64,000 bases of DNA. Source: Lysobacterales bacterium (lineage in GTDB: Bacteria > Pseudomonadota > Gammaproteobacteria > Xanthomonadales > SZUA-5). Position numbers and translations under genes: made by a program. The notes beneath the pieces are model-generated. The model made no database searches and had not been told where the DNA came from. It worked only from the letters and a program-made list of their open reading frames with translations. Position 1 is the stretch's first letter; every line of letters starts with the position of its first letter. Below, piece after piece: positions 13,532 through 61,781 of this stretch. The stretch lies in contig JALHMG010000034.1 of NCBI GenBank assembly GCA_022844135.1, forward strand, positions 1-64,000. The letters are read 5' to 3'.

Positions 13532-14410
13532 TCAGCCGTTCTCTTTTTCCGCCTCCACTTTGGCGTCCGCTTTGAAGCGAATTACCGCTTCCTTGCCGTA
13601 CCACCGACCATCGATCTGCGTCAGCTCCAGCTCGTGCGACAGCGGCGCGTCGAACACGGTTACGGTCGCACGTACGCGCGCCTTGTTTCCTTCCACTGCG
13701 ATCGTCTGAAAGCGGGTACTTGCGGCGATGGCGTCGATGTCCAGGCCGTACAGCTTTACGGCGCGTTTACTGGCGGCGAGCATCTTGCTGGCGGAATTCA
13801 ACGCTTCGTCGAACGACAGCATCTTGAGTTGATCGAGATTCTGGATGCCGGTGTCGCGAGCGGCGCGCGTCACCAGCGTGACCGCTTCGCGGGCGATCGC
13901 CGGATTGAAGAAATCCGTGCTCTTCAACCATCGTTCCAGACCCGGCAATAGCGCGCGCAGCATCTCGCGTTGCTCGGGAGTCATGTCGCTCTCGGGCTGG
14001 GATATCGCCATTTGCATGGCTCCCAGTGCCATCAAGATACCGCCTTGCGCCTGTGGCGCTGCTTCCAGCAGTTTCGGCTCGATCTCAGCCATCAACTGAT
14101 CGACAGCGTTGCTTGCCGTCAGTTTGCCGATGGCCTCTTCGAATTCCGCGCGTTGTTCATCCGTGATTGGCTTGCCGCGTTGCATTTCGTATGCGCCGCG
14201 CAATATCTGGAATTGACCGGCCGGCATCGACGCGCGCAACAAACCCGCAACGTCGTTGTTTCGGAGATGGCTGACCATTCCCTGCAACTGTTCTGCGGGA
14301 TCGACACTGGCAACGGCGGCGACAACGGCCGCTTCGCGGGCCTGCAACGGATTGGCGAAACCGGCAAACAACGCGACGCTGATGGTCGCGGCCAACACAA
14401 TTTTCTTCAT
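13532..14410 (-). CDS. secreted protein of unknown function
   Basis: The protein is 292 aa and starts at ATG 14410 with AGGAG 7 bases upstream. A clear signal peptide (MKKIVLAATISVALFAGFAN, then PLQA) is followed by a helix-rich body. Towards the end a strand-rich segment (GNKARVRATVTVFDAP ... QIDGRWYGKEAVIRF) resembles a small lipid-binding or NTF2-like fold, but I cannot name the family. It is probably periplasmic. It is monocistronic, convergent with the PhoX-type gene and faces the same way as prmB. Confidence 0.75.
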   Translation of the reverse strand: MKKIVLAATISVALFAGFANPLQAREAAVVAAVASVDPAEQLQGMVSHLRNNDVAGLLRASMPAGQFQILRGAYEMQRGKPITDEQRAEFEEAIGKLTASNAVDQLMAEIEPKLLEAAPQAQGGILMALGAMQMAISQPESDMTPEQREMLRALLPGLERWLKSTDFFNPAIAREAVTLVTRAARDTGIQNLDQLKMLSFDEALNSASKMLAASKRAVKLYGLDIDAIAASTRFQTIAVEGNKARVRATVTVFDAPLSHELELTQIDGRWYGKEAVIRFKADAKVEAEKENG

Positions 14411-49200: not shown

Positions 49201-50280
49201 GCGTTGCGTCAGGAAGGGTTTGATTGGCGCAGTGCCGCGAGCGGTCGCTGGCGTCGTCGGCGTGGGCAAATAAATGCGCCAGGAGTTCGCCCAGGATGCG
49301 CCTGCGGCTGGAACAGTTGGATTGACGTTGTCTCCGAAACCGTTCGGGTTGTAAAAGCCCACCTGGAATTCGTTGGTCGAGCCCGTCGAACGCGGAACGA
49401 TTTCCGTGGTGTAGATGCCAGGACGTACCACTGCGATATCGGTATGCCACGCGGCCGTGGTGTCGTTCGCGTTCCAGATGCCAGTGTTCGCCGATAGCGC
49501 AGCGCCTGTGAAGCTCTGGCTGACCACGGTTGGCACATTGGAGCTGAGCGAAATTGTCGTCAGAGCGCCAATCGTCGCCGCATCCGCGTCGTGATCGCGC
49601 ACGCGGACCTGGCAATGGCCGGTCACATACGGATGCGCTACGTAAAGCCCGGTGGCGCCGTAGTGCTGTACGCTCAAGTGCGCATCGGCGTAAACCCGCA
49701 ACTGCGTCGCGACGCCGCCCACCGTGGCGCGCGCCCTCAGGCCGTAGCCATTGACATTGCCGCCGCCAGCCAACGAGTCGACGCGCACTTCCCAGTGGCC
49801 ATTTCCGGGGGCAGCCACCGTGGTGAATGGAAACCAGGTTGCATGCGAGGCAGCGGGCGCAGCGACCGAACCATTGAGGGTCTGCACCGTCGTGCCTGCC
49901 GGATTGATCAACAAATAATCGGTAAGAGAGCCGGCAGTGCGCTGTTGATCGTAGTGCGGGAGCGAAGCACTGCTGCCCTCGCCAGCCCCGCCCTGGAAAA
50001 CGTCGGGATCGAAGATTTCGACGATCAGATTGGTCGTCGACGGAGGCACTTCGATGAAGTAACTGTAATGCGTATTGCCGCCGGTCGCTGCCGAAATCCA
50101 ATCGCCGTCGGCTGGTCCATTGCCTTGAGCATGGACAATAAACAGCCCCGATGTCGGTTGTCCTGGCGCGGGTGTGTCGCCGGGCGATACCGCGGGCCAG
50201 CCATCGGCATAAGCGGTGACGCTGAGAACCATCAGCGCTAACGCGCTTGCTACGACTGCCCCGGGCTTCATATACCTCAT
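46216..50280 (-). CDS. secreted C25 (gingipain-like) cysteine peptidase
   Basis: The protein is 1354 aa from ATG 50280 (AGGA 9 bases upstream); ATG 50271 is an alternative. The signal peptide includes MKPGAVVASALALMVLSVTA. The first 700 residues are beta-rich, with DUF11-like or Ig-like character (VRVDSLAGGGNVNGYGL; MTYRVAVTPAAIG). A peptidase C25 domain fills about 1035-1354: LLIVAHPVFVDAIQPL, LLVGADTYDYYN, IGRLPVRTVAELQTVL, catalytic His in HYLGHSSSNTW (near residue 1219) and catalytic Cys in QWGCWNSYL (near 1258). It ends in GTTLFGDPSLRRRP, as family members do. An extracellular endopeptidase is expected. It is convergent with the esterase fusion gene, 49 bp apart. Confidence 0.87.
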   Translation of the reverse strand: MRYMKPGAVVASALALMVLSVTAYADGWPAVSPGDTPAPGQPTSGLFIVHAQGNGPADGDWISAATGGNTHYSYFIEVPPSTTNLIVEIFDPDVFQGGAGEGSSASLPHYDQQRTAGSLTDYLLINPAGTTVQTLNGSVAAPAASHATWFPFTTVAAPGNGHWEVRVDSLAGGGNVNGYGLRARATVGGVATQLRVYADAHLSVQHYGATGLYVAHPYVTGHCQVRVRDHDADAATIGALTTISLSSNVPTVVSQSFTGAALSANTGIWNANDTTAAWHTDIAVVRPGIYTTEIVPRSTGSTNEFQVGFYNPNGFGDNVNPTVPAAGASWANSWRIYLPTPTTPATARGTAPIKPFLTQRAFHAGDASPNPPGVGQTGNYDVVIEMVNPTAYPITFSATNVVRAQVPGGPVVLATAAAVSAGSIVAQPAIGSSGPITWNPGTVAAGATVTMTYRVAVTPAAIGRIPVTGTPASNGTSATYVDETANTTQSRATYAWGPLCELAVTSGGTPVPTPATLASVSSNREGDRLVVQLRTAVQVGVAYYELLELPTGASRWARVPGGIAAAPEDHFVSKSIRLEGRTSADRFMIRVVDIDGKSMLHGPFEVGTTTGRDPETRTIPWAEIAAQAQASRSAGRGASPNPEAFDLRTQRAGIARLRFEDLPNAAWQGTAIAGIGVYDRDQAIPIKLTSTDEVFGPGDSIEFIVDASTSLYSRDRVYQLRRGQTSPARIGERRVASITPGMPAIKVERQSVLDQDVLYSLSSPLPDPWHYERLVSFGSAPLTRNYTLTLDPSYTGDVYVSGKMLGGIDHEGGEADHLVRVAVNGTEVTTVRFEGVDVAGFDTKVPASALNPGANTVSLTLPAQAYGVDIVYVEKVGLRYQGNAPVVAGAARFTPVPGEYAPLPAADNLFASGFGLEAAPDSCAAVDSQSLCRIAALEGLQSASARVYRRAADGSVEALVGVTQTSQGISWAEPLTLGREIHAADATGLVGLTISPSEMPAAVAGLADLLIVAHPVFVDAIQPLAVRRRGQGLSVQVVSTDAAYARYSGGNVDPEAIDRLIAEAAAANNTRSVLLVGADTYDYYNRLGLGSISFVPSHYVRMHPVVNHAPTDGLYADIDGDRIPDLAIGRLPVRTVAELQTVLQKIDSYEAVGGPAVAPGLFIADAADANGAVFSSLSDVLRTRMSRPVSTAYLDTTPASQVRQHLLDSARSGADLIHYLGHSSSNTWTFPAPGLISPAELFSGALANAVRPTIVWQWGCWNSYLAEPTADTLGHAWLLGPGAAVGVIGASSLTEAEHDAFLSWRLIEAWNAPGATLGSALLQAKRNLAVNDPGAADVILGTTLFGDPSLRRRP

Positions 50281-53831: not shown

Positions 53832-53907
53832 GGCCAGGTAGCTCAGTTGGTAGAGCAGGGGACTGAAAATCCCCGTGTCGGCGGTTCGATTCCGTCCCTG
53901 GCCACCA
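53832..53907 (+). tRNA. tRNA-Phe (GAA)
   Basis: This is a 76-base tRNA with encoded CCA. The acceptor stem GGCCAGG/CCTGGCC pairs fully. The D arm is GCTC AGTTGGTAGA GCAG. The anticodon stem GGGGA/TCCCC has loop CTGAAAA (anticodon GAA, phenylalanine). The T arm is GGCGG TTCGATT CCGTC. Its 3' half is duplicated at 55309-55354, marking it as an integration site; the gene itself remains intact. Confidence 0.96.
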
Positions 53908-53919
53908 TCTCGATCAAGC
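53874..53919 (+). other. attachment site, tRNA-side copy (46 bp)
   Basis: The tRNA 3' half plus 12 downstream bases (from CGTGTCGGCGGTTCGATTCC to GATCAAGC) recur at 55309-55354 with 44 of 46 positions identical. This is the standard footprint of a tyrosine-integrase element in a tRNA gene. Confidence 0.8.
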
Positions 53920-53964
53920 ACTTAGATCACATTTAGGCAGCACTCCAGTTCGCCTGCTCTGATC

Positions 53965-53985
53965 TGGTGCCCGTATGGTGCCCGT
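53965..53985 (+). repeat. two adjacent TGGTGCCCGT direct repeats
   Basis: The 10-mer TGGTGCCCGT occurs at 53965-53974 and 53976-53985, 46 bp inside the tRNA-side att copy. Paired short repeats at this place are often integrase arm-type or excisionase sites. That role is inferred from position. Confidence 0.4.
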
Positions 53986-54070
53986 TTGTTGTCTGCTTGG
54001 CCCGCTGCGTAACCCGGTATCGGGTGGCGCGTTACGCATACGACACACGTTGCGTGGTACGCTTTTCCCC

Positions 54071-54475
54071 ATGAGTACCGTTCGCCCATTTCTCGCCCAC
54101 GCCGTCAGCACCGAGCGCCAGTTCGTGGCCGCAGACTTGCGCGTGTTGATTGCACCCGGCGCCGGCGGCGGGTTCGTGGCTCAGGGAATCGAAATCGACT
54201 ACGTTGCGACAGGTGCCACAGAAGAGGAAGCGCGCGAGCGTTTCGCGGACGGGTTCATCGCCACCATCCGCAGCTACCTGCGGCGCAATCGGCCTCTGTC
54301 TGGCCTTTTCAAATCGGCAGCGCCCGCAGAAGCTCGCGAGGCGTACTTCGATCAGGAAACCAAGCCGATGTTCTGGTGTGAAATCACCGAGGACTTTGGG
54401 CCAGCGACGCAAGGCGCGCCAATCCCGCGATCGATCTCGTTCGTTCGCCACCCGAACGCCCTTCGCGCTGCGTGA
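54071..54475 (+). CDS. HicB-like antitoxin candidate
   Basis: The protein is 134 aa from ATG 54071, without a clear ribosome site. The middle (GGGFVAQGIEIDYVATGATE, then EEARERFADGF) fits the HicB partial RNase-H-like fold, in which a strand-rich start is followed by xTxEEAxxxxxxA. The C-terminal part is longer than usual and has no HTH I can identify. The next gene starts inside its stop codon (GTGA), and both lie in a tRNA-Phe-integrated remnant. Antitoxin function is inferred. Confidence 0.55.
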   Translation: MSTVRPFLAHAVSTERQFVAADLRVLIAPGAGGGFVAQGIEIDYVATGATEEEARERFADGFIATIRSYLRRNRPLSGLFKSAAPAEAREAYFDQETKPMFWCEITEDFGPATQGAPIPRSISFVRHPNALRAA

Positions 54476-54723
54476 AGTTGCCGCAAGGCCAATGGGATGG
54501 CGCACAGCCCCGCACGCACGTGCTAGCGGTCTTGCGCCGTTATGGCGTACAAGTCACCCGCCTGGAAGCCGACAACTACGAATTGATCGACTGCGAAGGC
54601 GATCCGCTCGTTCTGCACATTCCATCGCCCGTGCCACGCGAGTTGATTCCCTTCCTTTACCGGCGGTTCGGCCACCTGCATGGGTTCGAAATCACAGCGC
54701 TGGTGCGCAAGAAGCCAGGCTGA
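54472..54723 (+). CDS. HicA-like toxin candidate
   Basis: The protein is 83 aa from GTG 54472, overlapping the upstream stop by 4 bases. The core (THVLAVLRRYGVQVTRLEAD ... PLVLHIPSPVPRELIPFLYR) has the helix, three strands, helix layout of HicA double-stranded RNA-binding-like toxins. However, the usual GSHxxY with catalytic His is replaced by ADNYEL. It may be inactive or a different small fold. It is paired with the HicB-like gene. Confidence 0.45.
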   Translation: MKLPQGQWDGAQPRTHVLAVLRRYGVQVTRLEADNYELIDCEGDPLVLHIPSPVPRELIPFLYRRFGHLHGFEITALVRKKPG

Positions 54724-55074
54724 TTGCCGATTGTCCGCGTTACCAAGTAACGCCTGTCGAAATCGAGCTGGCCACGTGCGAGCATCATACAAACACTCCT
54801 GGTTGGGTGTCGCTTTTGCCGGCCACGAGGGCACAACAGTGCCGCACGCAACTGCCGCAGCTGTAAGACTGTTTTTGCCTGTAAGGACGCCATTTTCGAC
54901 CAGTGGTTCGCGTGCGCGCGCGAAGAAATCTGCGGCAAGTGCGGCCAATCGCACGACATCCACGAACCACGGGCATCGCCGAAATGTGCTAGCGCGATAG
55001 TGCGTTAGCGCAGTATCCTTACTTCCAGCACAAATGTCGGAACGTGCTTTATATCCGTCATTGAAGTATATACC
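54724..55074. other. no gene recognised inside the tRNA-Phe remnant
   Basis: This 351-bp gap lies between the HicA-like gene and the integrase fragment. Short open frames occur on both strands but none has a ribosome site or protein-like composition. From about 55050 the sequence becomes AT-richer (TTTATATCCGTCATTGAAGT), as at an element boundary. It is probably eroded element DNA. Confidence 0.5.
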
Positions 55075-55310
55075 TTAGGCTTTGCTCCGTGCACGCCGGA
55101 TCGTGGTCACCGTCGCGGCGCTGCCCTGAAGCAGGTCACGCAACTTTTCCAGCGCCGCACGCTTCTCATCGGTGTGGTCTTGGCAATCGTAGTGCCGTTC
55201 CTGAATGCCGCCAAGCCCGTGGCTCTGCAGTTGTGCGCGGATTTCGACCGGGACGCCAACTCCGGCGAGCCGCGTTTCGACAGTGCGGCGCAAATCGCCG
55301 ATGGTAAACG
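55075..55310 (-). pseudogene. 3' remnant of a tyrosine (P4-type) integrase
   Basis: On the minus strand, from the att duplication, the frame reads FTIGDLRRTVETRLAGVGVP, then a HGLGG segment and ERHYDCQDHTDEKRAALEKL, ending at 55075. This is the C-terminal catalytic end of a phage integrase, with the box II Arg and the nucleophile Tyr (RHY). Everything upstream is missing: the 5' truncation coincides with the att copy. Only about 75 of about 400 residues remain, so it cannot be active. Confidence 0.8.
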
Positions 55311-55354
55311 TGTCGGCGGTTCGATTCCGTCTCTGGCCACCATCTTGATCAAGC
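55309..55354 (+). other. attachment site, distal copy (46 bp)
   Basis: This is a duplicate of 53874-53919 with two C-to-T differences. It marks the far end of the integrated remnant, whose unit length is 1435 bp. Confidence 0.8.
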
Positions 55355-56041
55355 CCTTTCTTGAAGTGCTGACGATCGTACTTTCCGCACCTTGCCAGTG
55401 GTAAACGCACAACAAGTCATTCGACTTCCTGTTTCGCGGTCGGGTGCGCTTGCTCGATCGAAGCATTGCCGAATTCCTTTCGACTGGCGTGGGTCGGCGT
55501 CGCTTTCAGTAGCTGATCGGGTACGGCTGCTGCCTCTCCTTTCGATAATCGTGCTTGCGGACCAGTTCGCCGAAAACCCAGACGAACGCTGTTCGTGCCC
55601 ACTTTGGATTGTGAGGCATAGACGCAGGCTGCCTCACAGCGGGCGAGATTGCTTGAGTTCTGTTTACTGAGCGGCTGATTGCCGGTTGTCTGCCGCCACT
55701 GCACCTTCAATCGAATGATGTGCAGCAAATATGCGGCGTTGCCCTGATTTGTTACGGGCGCCTGCCGACGATCAATCTCAGGTGCCAACACACGAGGCCG
55801 AATAGATCAGCTGCCCACGCCACCGCGCCGATGGATCTTGCATCGCTCGCCCTCGAGTTTCGAACTCCTCACTGGCTGGACGTCATCTCGCGTTGGGGGC
55901 GCGCGGCGCAGGTCCAATCATCATAAAACGTCATCTGATTATCCGTCCCAACTGGAGATCGAATTTCTACAATAGCGATATCAGGGTGTTGGCCGATGGC
56001 AGTCGGGCTTCGAAGCACTCGCAGGTTGTCAAGGAGCGGCA
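55355..56041. other. 687 bp without a recognisable gene
   Basis: Short open frames exist on both strands but none has a credible start or family resemblance. A TACAAT at 55968-55973, about 70 bp before the efflux operon, could be a -10 element, although no good -35 stands at the right distance. The stretch may be the scar of a larger island once attached to the tRNA. Confidence 0.4.
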
Positions 56042-61600: not shown

Positions 61601-61781
61601 CATCACCAGCAGCGGCGCTGGCGCTGCAGCCCGAAAGTCGATCGGACTCACGGTCTTTTCCGGCATGTTGGCCTCGACCCTGCTGGCCGTGGCGCTGGTG
61701 CCAGTGTTTTTTCTAATCATCGAGCAATGGCAGGGTCGAAAAACGAGCCCGGCCCTCACCGAACCGAAGGTTGAACGATGA
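58635..61781 (+). CDS. RND multidrug efflux pump, HAE1 family (AcrB/MexB-like)
   Basis: The protein is 1048 aa, with an ATG in an ATGA overlap with the adaptor. The N terminus is the family's IARYFIERPVLANVIAL. TM4 carries the proton-relay pair in GIVVDDAIVVVEGV. Two large periplasmic porter loops (about 30-335 and 560-870) and twelve helices are evident. The second-half motif GLSAKNAILIVE reads LIALSAKNAILIVEVA. It exports hydrophobic drugs or solvents using the proton gradient. No regulator gene is adjacent. Confidence 0.95.
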   Translation: MIARYFIERPVLANVIALLTLLIGAVSVLGLPVAQYPQLTPPTITVTANYPGANARTVKDVVARAIEQQVNGVEGMLYMQSVASNDGRYTLTVSFAVGTDADQAQVAVQNRVASALPSLPSAVQQQGVVTRKRSTAILQIVTLSSDDPAHDALFLSNFANLRLRESLARLPGIADVGVFGVGAYSMRIWLDAAQMKQRGLNPSAVIAVVGKQTQRISAGQLGMPPAPPGQQQQLSIVVDGPLEDAEEFGNLVIATGDGGAVTRLRDVARIELGSQNYNQTFTFDGRSAGGIAIYQLPDANALDAADAVRAELKRLSAGFPKGLRFDVPLDTTVFVRASIHEVYKTLVEAGLLVLLVIIVFLQDWRATLVPATTVPITVIGAFAAMAALGFSINLLTLFAIVLCIGIVVDDAIVVVEGVAQKLEEGMPAREAAVSAMNELLGPIIGVTLVLTAVFLPAAFIPGITGEMYKQFALVIAATAVISGINAVTLKPAQSAQYLRPHDPGRRPGRFARAFDAVYGPTERAYLRLIQILLRRRWLSAAAGALLIGLSAWGFATIPTGFIPTEDQGFVMVALQLPDAASLERTDRAAQQLVQAGLQVPGVKHAIAVGGVSPLESNAPLSSAALVYFVLKDWDERGKSAGQDLRSIFKRLNEELDRLPDASGLVLVPPPINGLGLSGGFQMQLVLNDGSGDDQKLAAAAQAMVAAASTDPRIERVFTPLRIAVPQLKLDLNRARAEALGVSVGDAYDAMQSYLGSSYVNQFSKFGQNYTIFVQADPKSRLDQDAIGRLTVRSRSGQMVPLSAFVRFSEEQGPAVAAQYNLMPTAAIVGAAATGYSSGEALALMEDLAARTLPAGVSYEWTAMSYQEKLVGNSVVLVFGLAVLLVYLVLAGQYESWWTPVPVLLSVPLSLVGTVAALAAVGLPNNIYVQIGLVLLIALSAKNAILIVEVAHELHQKGMGVVEAALEGSRRRFRPILMTSFAFILGVVPLITSSGAGAAARKSIGLTVFSGMLASTLLAVALVPVFFLIIEQWQGRKTSPALTEPKVER

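Follow-up and report, generated by a model that had tools for sequence, protein, structure and literature searches.

Islands integrated into tRNA genes, as catalogued by the Islander approach, are among the closest described counterparts of the locus analyzed here. According to PMC4383910, they share with it a tRNA gene, a correctly oriented displaced 3' fragment of this gene, an integrase, present here as a remnant, and flanking direct repeats. The locus differs from these islands by its length of 1.4 kb, by the truncation of its integrase and by a fragment that begins at tRNA base 43 and not within the anticodon arm. Islander rejects candidates shorter than 2 kb, and the same source describes both anticodon-centred integrases and a class with the crossover in the T-stem. 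For the gene pair carried by the locus, termed here HB and HA, the nearest known system is class 2 of the hicBA modules. This class, as described in PMC10865869, agrees with the pair in an antitoxin-like gene placed first, an overlap of the two genes, the lack of a recognised DNA-binding domain and a second protein of HicA size; the pair deviates from this class by the length of HB (134 aa versus 63-103 codons) and by having neither a Pfam HicA/HicB match nor the catalytic histidine.

As a remnant of a tRNA-integrated element, the locus is ordinary and well resolved. We consider it very likely that this element is a collapsed one, frozen in tRNA-Phe by a single deletion and still carrying a HicBA-like pair; this reading builds on the anatomy of the locus, its relatives, the joint between integrase and repeat, and the predicted folds, all of which were observed directly. 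The window, that is, the whole stretch of DNA that was analyzed, is 64 kb long, and the integration target in it is a plus-strand tRNA-Phe(GAA) at positions 53832-53907 (ARAGORN; Rfam RF00005 at 53832-53904). A plus-strand direct repeat that starts within this gene (53874-53923, the attL side) recurs on the same strand at 55309-55358 with 47/50 identical positions. The preliminary description had reported a 46-bp duplication of the tRNA-Phe 3' end around ~1.4 kb, and its 44/46 identity is confirmed as part of this fuller match. Bases 43-76 of the tRNA account for 34 nt of the 50-nt repeat and the remaining 16 nt lie beyond the gene. The displaced fragment (55309-55342), which matches these tRNA bases at 33/34 positions and reaches the tRNA 3' end, is located downstream of tRNA-Phe in the same orientation. 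A scan allowing up to 12 mismatches revealed no further copy of the 34-nt core on either strand to the right of position 50000. The G+C content of the interval is 0.60 compared to 0.62 for the whole window, and a whole-genome DNA search detected no second copy of the interval in its own genome, merely short tRNA-like matches.

The interval contains two TGGTGCCCGT sites, the HB and HA genes, ~350 bp in which no gene could be assigned (54724-55074, between HA and the integrase tail), and the end of a tyrosine integrase gene, in agreement with the preliminary description. This C-terminal piece (55075-55308, minus strand) corresponds at 73% identity to residues 401-477 of the complete integrase of G006, a genome of the same family, and represents 77 of the ~480 codons of a complete enzyme, as judged from an alignment of four complete integrases. 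The lost front part includes the first catalytic arginine, and the retained part includes the LRRT, LQSHG and RHY regions, which we take to have active-site roles. The missing front was not found elsewhere in the 64-kb window.

The element in G006 is ~10 kb long and resides at tRNA-Phe, with a displaced copy and a full distal integrase that reads inwards; each of its ends carries GGTGCCC sites. It resembles the window locus in the integrase family, the target, the arm-site motif and the position and orientation of the integrase, which supports the earlier proposal that the locus is a collapsed integrative element. Unlike the locus, it has a complete integrase, encoded in one frame of ~480 codons between the att copies, and both ends, and the HB-HA pair was not found in it. 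The G006 element (L030, 2618-12623) also has DUF927 and phage capsid genes and resembles a capsid-carrying phage satellite. We found no intact version of the exact element present in the window.

Relatives of this integrase were detected at E <= 1e-60 in 29 of 398 genomes of the order, including the four genomes that provided the query alignment. In 26 of these 29 loci, inspection by eye revealed that the N-terminal end of the integrase is adjoined by a tRNA 3' fragment with the anticodon loop; 15 of these fragments are tRNA-Phe-like, and the rest resemble tRNAs for Leu, Asn, Lys, Thr and Met. The pattern search found no such fragment in the other three loci (L168, L169 and L170). A script that accepts anticodon arms of five pairs, one of which may be mispaired, identified a paired arm at the right place in 22/29 loci (it reported 23, with the one in L160 misplaced), and four loci (L150, L154, L159 and L160) have the anticodon loop with a degenerate outer stem. 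By the same script, the tRNA gene in the window has an anticodon arm and the distal copy has none: the latter begins at base 43 and not at the anticodon-arm subsite used by the integrase family. The part of the repeat upstream of GGTTCGA measures 17, 20, 22, 23 and 25 nt in five two-copy loci, two of which, L037 (G008) and L075 (G055), have no match to this integrase, versus 9 nt in the window.

The distal att copy directly abuts integrase codon ~401 and shares the CG with which the alignment to the G006 integrase terminates. Thus, the earlier statement that the integrase is cut precisely at the distal att holds for the reading frame, which ends at the repeat, but the att copy itself is not intact, as it lacks the anticodon arm seen in relatives. 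Both the missing arm and the directly adjoining integrase codons can be explained by a single deletion; most simply, att was damaged by the same event as the integrase. In the proposed scenario, a small element with a tyrosine integrase, probably a phage satellite or something akin to one, would have integrated into tRNA-Phe, restoring the tRNA on the left and pushing the old 3' end to the right, with its integrase at the far end and reading inwards. Afterwards, a single deletion of ~1.4 kb, equivalent to a span of 1389 bp in G006, probably fused the displaced copy, at tRNA base 43, to integrase codon ~401. The integrase front would have been lost in this event, as would the outer arm sites and the anticodon portion of the outer att; excision would then no longer be expected, and the pair beside the tRNA would have stayed open. 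The argument for loss of excision combines the anticodon-arm start in relatives with general knowledge of attachment sites. Since crossovers in the T-stem are described for other integrases (PMC4383910), it is from the relatives that we infer this loss; most likely, the remnant can no longer move.

The end of the integrase frame exactly at the repeat would also be expected if the integrase gene spanned attP, so that the cut at att is the normal state of an integrated and intact element, and integrases of this kind (Mx8, SSV) are named in PMC4383910. This explanation appears highly improbable, given that 26 of 29 relatives carry their tRNA fragment N-terminally of the integrase match, that the G006 gene runs uninterrupted between its att copies, and that no missing front was found elsewhere in the window. 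It is also improbable, if not to the same degree, that the integrase of another element mobilizes the locus in trans as a non-autonomous mini-island. The two direct repeats, the remaining arm sites on the tRNA side and the compact cargo would fit such a mini-island, whereas the distal copy is devoid of the relatives' anticodon part and of a nearby arm-site pair, the interval is single-copy in its genome, and no helper integrase of the family was found there. The latter search used the integrase alignment and gave no match reaching E 1e-60 in the own genome, with 4 of 17 first-look candidates scored. The same genome has five PF00589 matches, which are dissimilar to the family of the remnant (best blastp E 0.044). 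However, PF00589 does not detect this family and is uninformative about a helper: the G006 integrase has no PF00589 match at E <= 0.01, and its Pfam arm-binding and central-domain matches are slightly under the curated cut-offs. A diverged helper integrase in the own genome is therefore possible. The suggestion that a full integrase elsewhere in the genome could still excise the element is accordingly narrowed to such a diverged enzyme, with no close relative at E <= 1e-60 and no second DNA copy.

Returning to the collapsed element, its tRNA side has two putative integrase arm sites, both with the sequence TGGTGCCCGT on the plus strand (53965-53974 and, 11 bp from the first, 53976-53985); these are the only two exact copies in the 64-kb window and form a spaced GGTGCCC pair beside att. 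In 908 kb of redundant sequence, GGTGCCC-N4-GGTGCCC occurs solely at the window locus and in G003, G006 (at both ends), G055 and G139, and every pair found adjoins an att copy, which suggests binding by the integrase. No arm-site pair is located near the distal att copy at 55309. A terminator-like hairpin formed by the two arm sites was considered and rejected, as such hairpins are no more frequent than by chance (2.4 expected versus 1 found), and a search of the plus strand revealed no sigma-70-like promoter.

Another motif, ATCAAGCACTTAG, is located immediately after the tRNA (53913-53925, plus strand). By our count by eye, this motif or a near copy of it follows 6 of 18 complete tRNA-Phe genes (in G000, G001, G006, G008, G031 and G055). 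A weaker version of ATCAAGCACTTAG follows the distal tRNA copy in the window, so that an older element could lie beyond it on the right. The remnant may be the inner survivor of a tandem array, in which case the sequence to the right of 55343 would be the left end of another, older element; this is compatible with the single-deletion scenario, and we regard it as possible, if rather doubtful. Past the tRNA, the repeat extends for another 16 bp into a GATCAAGCCCTT stretch that resembles the sequence after tRNA-Phe in several element-bearing loci, and a tRNA-Phe gene in G055 is followed by a second 3' copy and then by a GGTGCCC pair (L075, 4196-4222 and 8934-9035), an arrangement that looks like tandem elements. 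On the other hand, the sequence to the right of 55358 has neither a third att copy nor a recognisable element gene, and its only arm motif is a single-mismatch one at 61696; moreover, G048 bears an element without a ATCAAGCACTTAG-like stretch.

G001, the nearest relative and the one further member of the genus covered by the search, has an orthologous left flank and an identical tRNA. The ~70 bp past this tRNA (a 72-bp scar) resemble the window and include one TGGTGCCCGT; together with the tRNA, 135 of 148 positions are identical. This stretch looks like the scar of an element of the same kind, and the HB-HA pair is absent from G001. The efflux-type right flank of the window was not found beside tRNA-Phe in the eight relatives searched, and none of the relatives searched has both flanks, so we cannot point to an empty tRNA-Phe site.

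The HB gene (54071-54475, plus strand) encodes a HicB-like protein of 134 aa and overlaps by 4 bp with the HA gene (54472-54723, plus strand), which has a GTG start and encodes an 83-aa protein with a predicted HicA fold and no catalytic histidine. The same overlap is present in L044, L046, L047, L048 and L049. Neither protein scored above chance level in Pfam, NCBIfam, PHROGs and PADLOC; in particular, there was no match to HicA (PF07927) or HicB (PF15919) in Pfam or NCBIfam at E <= 1, and the same was true for 10 HB members in Pfam.

The distribution of the pair is very narrow. At E <= 1e-3, HB was found in three of 398 genomes of the order (the own genome, G030 and G042). The match in G042 and a second one in G030 (E ~4e-4) were rejected as chance, since a both-strand re-search gave E values of at least 0.19 for HB and no adjacent HA. 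HA was detected solely in the own genome, both among 369 genomes of the class and, by its profile, in a phylum sample of 398 genomes. In the GTDB species collection, a pattern scan retrieved two loci, L044 and that of G030 (L045), and viral contigs contributed eight HB loci, four with close HB and HA (L046-L049) and four distant. Searches of plasmid and phage records with HB and a viral scan with HA alone returned no match. Given this rarity and the absence from G001, the pair is not a conserved chromosomal module that occurs without att repeats, a case that would have contradicted the island interpretation.

Of the seven close copies of the pair, five (those of the window, L044, G030, L047 and L048) have an integrase, a tRNA or a fragment of a tRNA as their neighbor. 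In L044, the pair follows tRNA-Asn by ~145 bp, and a second copy of the tRNA-Asn end was not seen within 8.6 kb. The G030 pair (L032, 5754-6760) is located ~280 bp from a 3' fragment that we assigned by eye as tRNA-Lys-like, with AATCAAGCACTTGA alongside. In L047 and L048 the pair adjoins a phage integrase and is convergent with it, and in L046 and L049 it lies among other genes of viral contigs. The seven copies are not independent, as the pairs of L047/L048 and of L046/L049 are nearly identical. Between these close viral copies, the synonymous and other changes number 9:0 and 4:0 for HB, and 6:3 and 2:1 for HA. All changes in HB being synonymous, HB seems to be kept by selection in the viral contigs, the copies to which this comparison applies.

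Predicted structures suggest a resemblance of HB to HicB, which has a partial RNase H fold, and of HA to HicA, which has a dsRBD-like fold. For the HB model (AlphaFold, pLDDT 76.9), the top seven structural matches are HicB or HicAB chains (Z 5.5-6.9), followed by 3k6q, a putative antitoxin (Z 4.4), the uncharacterised 2yzt (Z 4.3) and unrelated chains from 3.8. The HA model (pLDDT 87.7) consists of a helix, three strands, a helix and a short helix; its best match is 1whz, titled hypothetical protein (Z 6.5), ranks 2-4, with Z 5.8-5.9, are HicA-length chains of toxin-antitoxin (HicAB) complexes, the unrelated chains next in order have Z 5.2-5.3, and an NMR structure of HicA gives just Z 3.5, all in the range below 8 in which a match may reflect merely a common arrangement. 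The best Foldseek matches are HicB3 for HB (probability 1.00, E 0.12) and 1whz for HA (probability 0.92, E 0.08), and none reaches E <= 0.001 for either model. The hhalign comparisons with proteins of relatives (13 HicA for HA, 8 HicB for HB) were roughly collinear and weak (probability 2.5-5.4%, with E 0.007-0.019 for one of these comparisons); the 13 HicA were chosen by their SH motif and hence provide no test of histidine conservation. Sequence searches of PDB with the HB and HA profiles retrieved no HicA or HicB. The designation of the pair as HicBA-like thus draws on predicted fold and operon layout; sequence profiles do not match, and HA lacks the catalytic histidine.

This histidine, which is important for activity in the HicA proteins studied (PMC11594946), is absent in 10/10 HA members. 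Together with the lack of any family profile matching the pair, its absence would suit a pair that is not a toxin-antitoxin system, in which HA is an RNA-binding or regulatory partner within a HicBA-shaped arrangement. We regard such a non-toxic regulatory pair as quite possible and as the main alternative to a HicBA-type module. The missing histidine does not set HA apart, since 6 of the 29 PF07927 matches in relatives that could be read have arginine in its place; in the unfiltered set, GSH is present in 18/30 matches, one locus is unreadable and the others vary. The matches with arginine are in L104, L112, L114, L115, L117 and L118 (match from 1501), most of them in a GSR context. Further points against a regulatory pair are the fit of gene order, overlap, sizes, both predicted folds and mobile setting to hicBA, the invariance of H70 of HA in the seven close members, and the G030 copy, where HA is frameshifted and HB is open, as expected on toxin loss, although an error of the draft assembly may account for the frameshift. 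On these grounds we favor, with some reservation, a pair that works as a HicBA-type module, where HB would bind and mask HA, an RNA-binding HicA-like protein, and the translations of the two would be coupled; HA may be toxic, and the pair may assist maintenance ('addiction'). An unlikely but more specific proposal is that the pair constitutes an unrecognised HicBA branch with a toxin fold that lacks the catalytic histidine and uses other chemistry or binding only. Such a branch would occupy the att-end slot of satellites and prophages, with its 5' end facing att in tRNA-adjacent cases, and its transcription would differ between the integrated and excised states. A literature search revealed no HicA without the histidine among the matches listed, and none that combined a truncated integrase, a toxin-antitoxin pair and a tRNA; neither result implies absence from print.

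The locus provides a clean example of mobile-element lock-in, as one deletion seemingly disabled both the enzyme and the site and the cargo pair survived. The pair itself is a small gene family missed by four annotation libraries. If HA is toxic without the HicA histidine, it would reveal a second mode of action for the HicA fold and provide a marker for element ends; if the pair is not toxic, the reading that an addiction pair outlives its island fails here.

The sequence to the right of tRNA-Phe was also compared between the two genomes of the genus. Gene order there differs (window 53907 onward versus L031 and L070): the right flank of G001, with thiolase-like and then HslUV-like genes (named by eye), has its counterpart on another contig of the own genome, and the nearest of these genes are on contig C19. 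In addition, a dispersed repeat of ~95 bp is present at 2824-2902 of the window and at 13736-13831 and 18108-18215 of L031. The own genome contains over 30 matches to this repeat, and the copy in the window folds into three strong hairpins that lie side by side (z -9.05).
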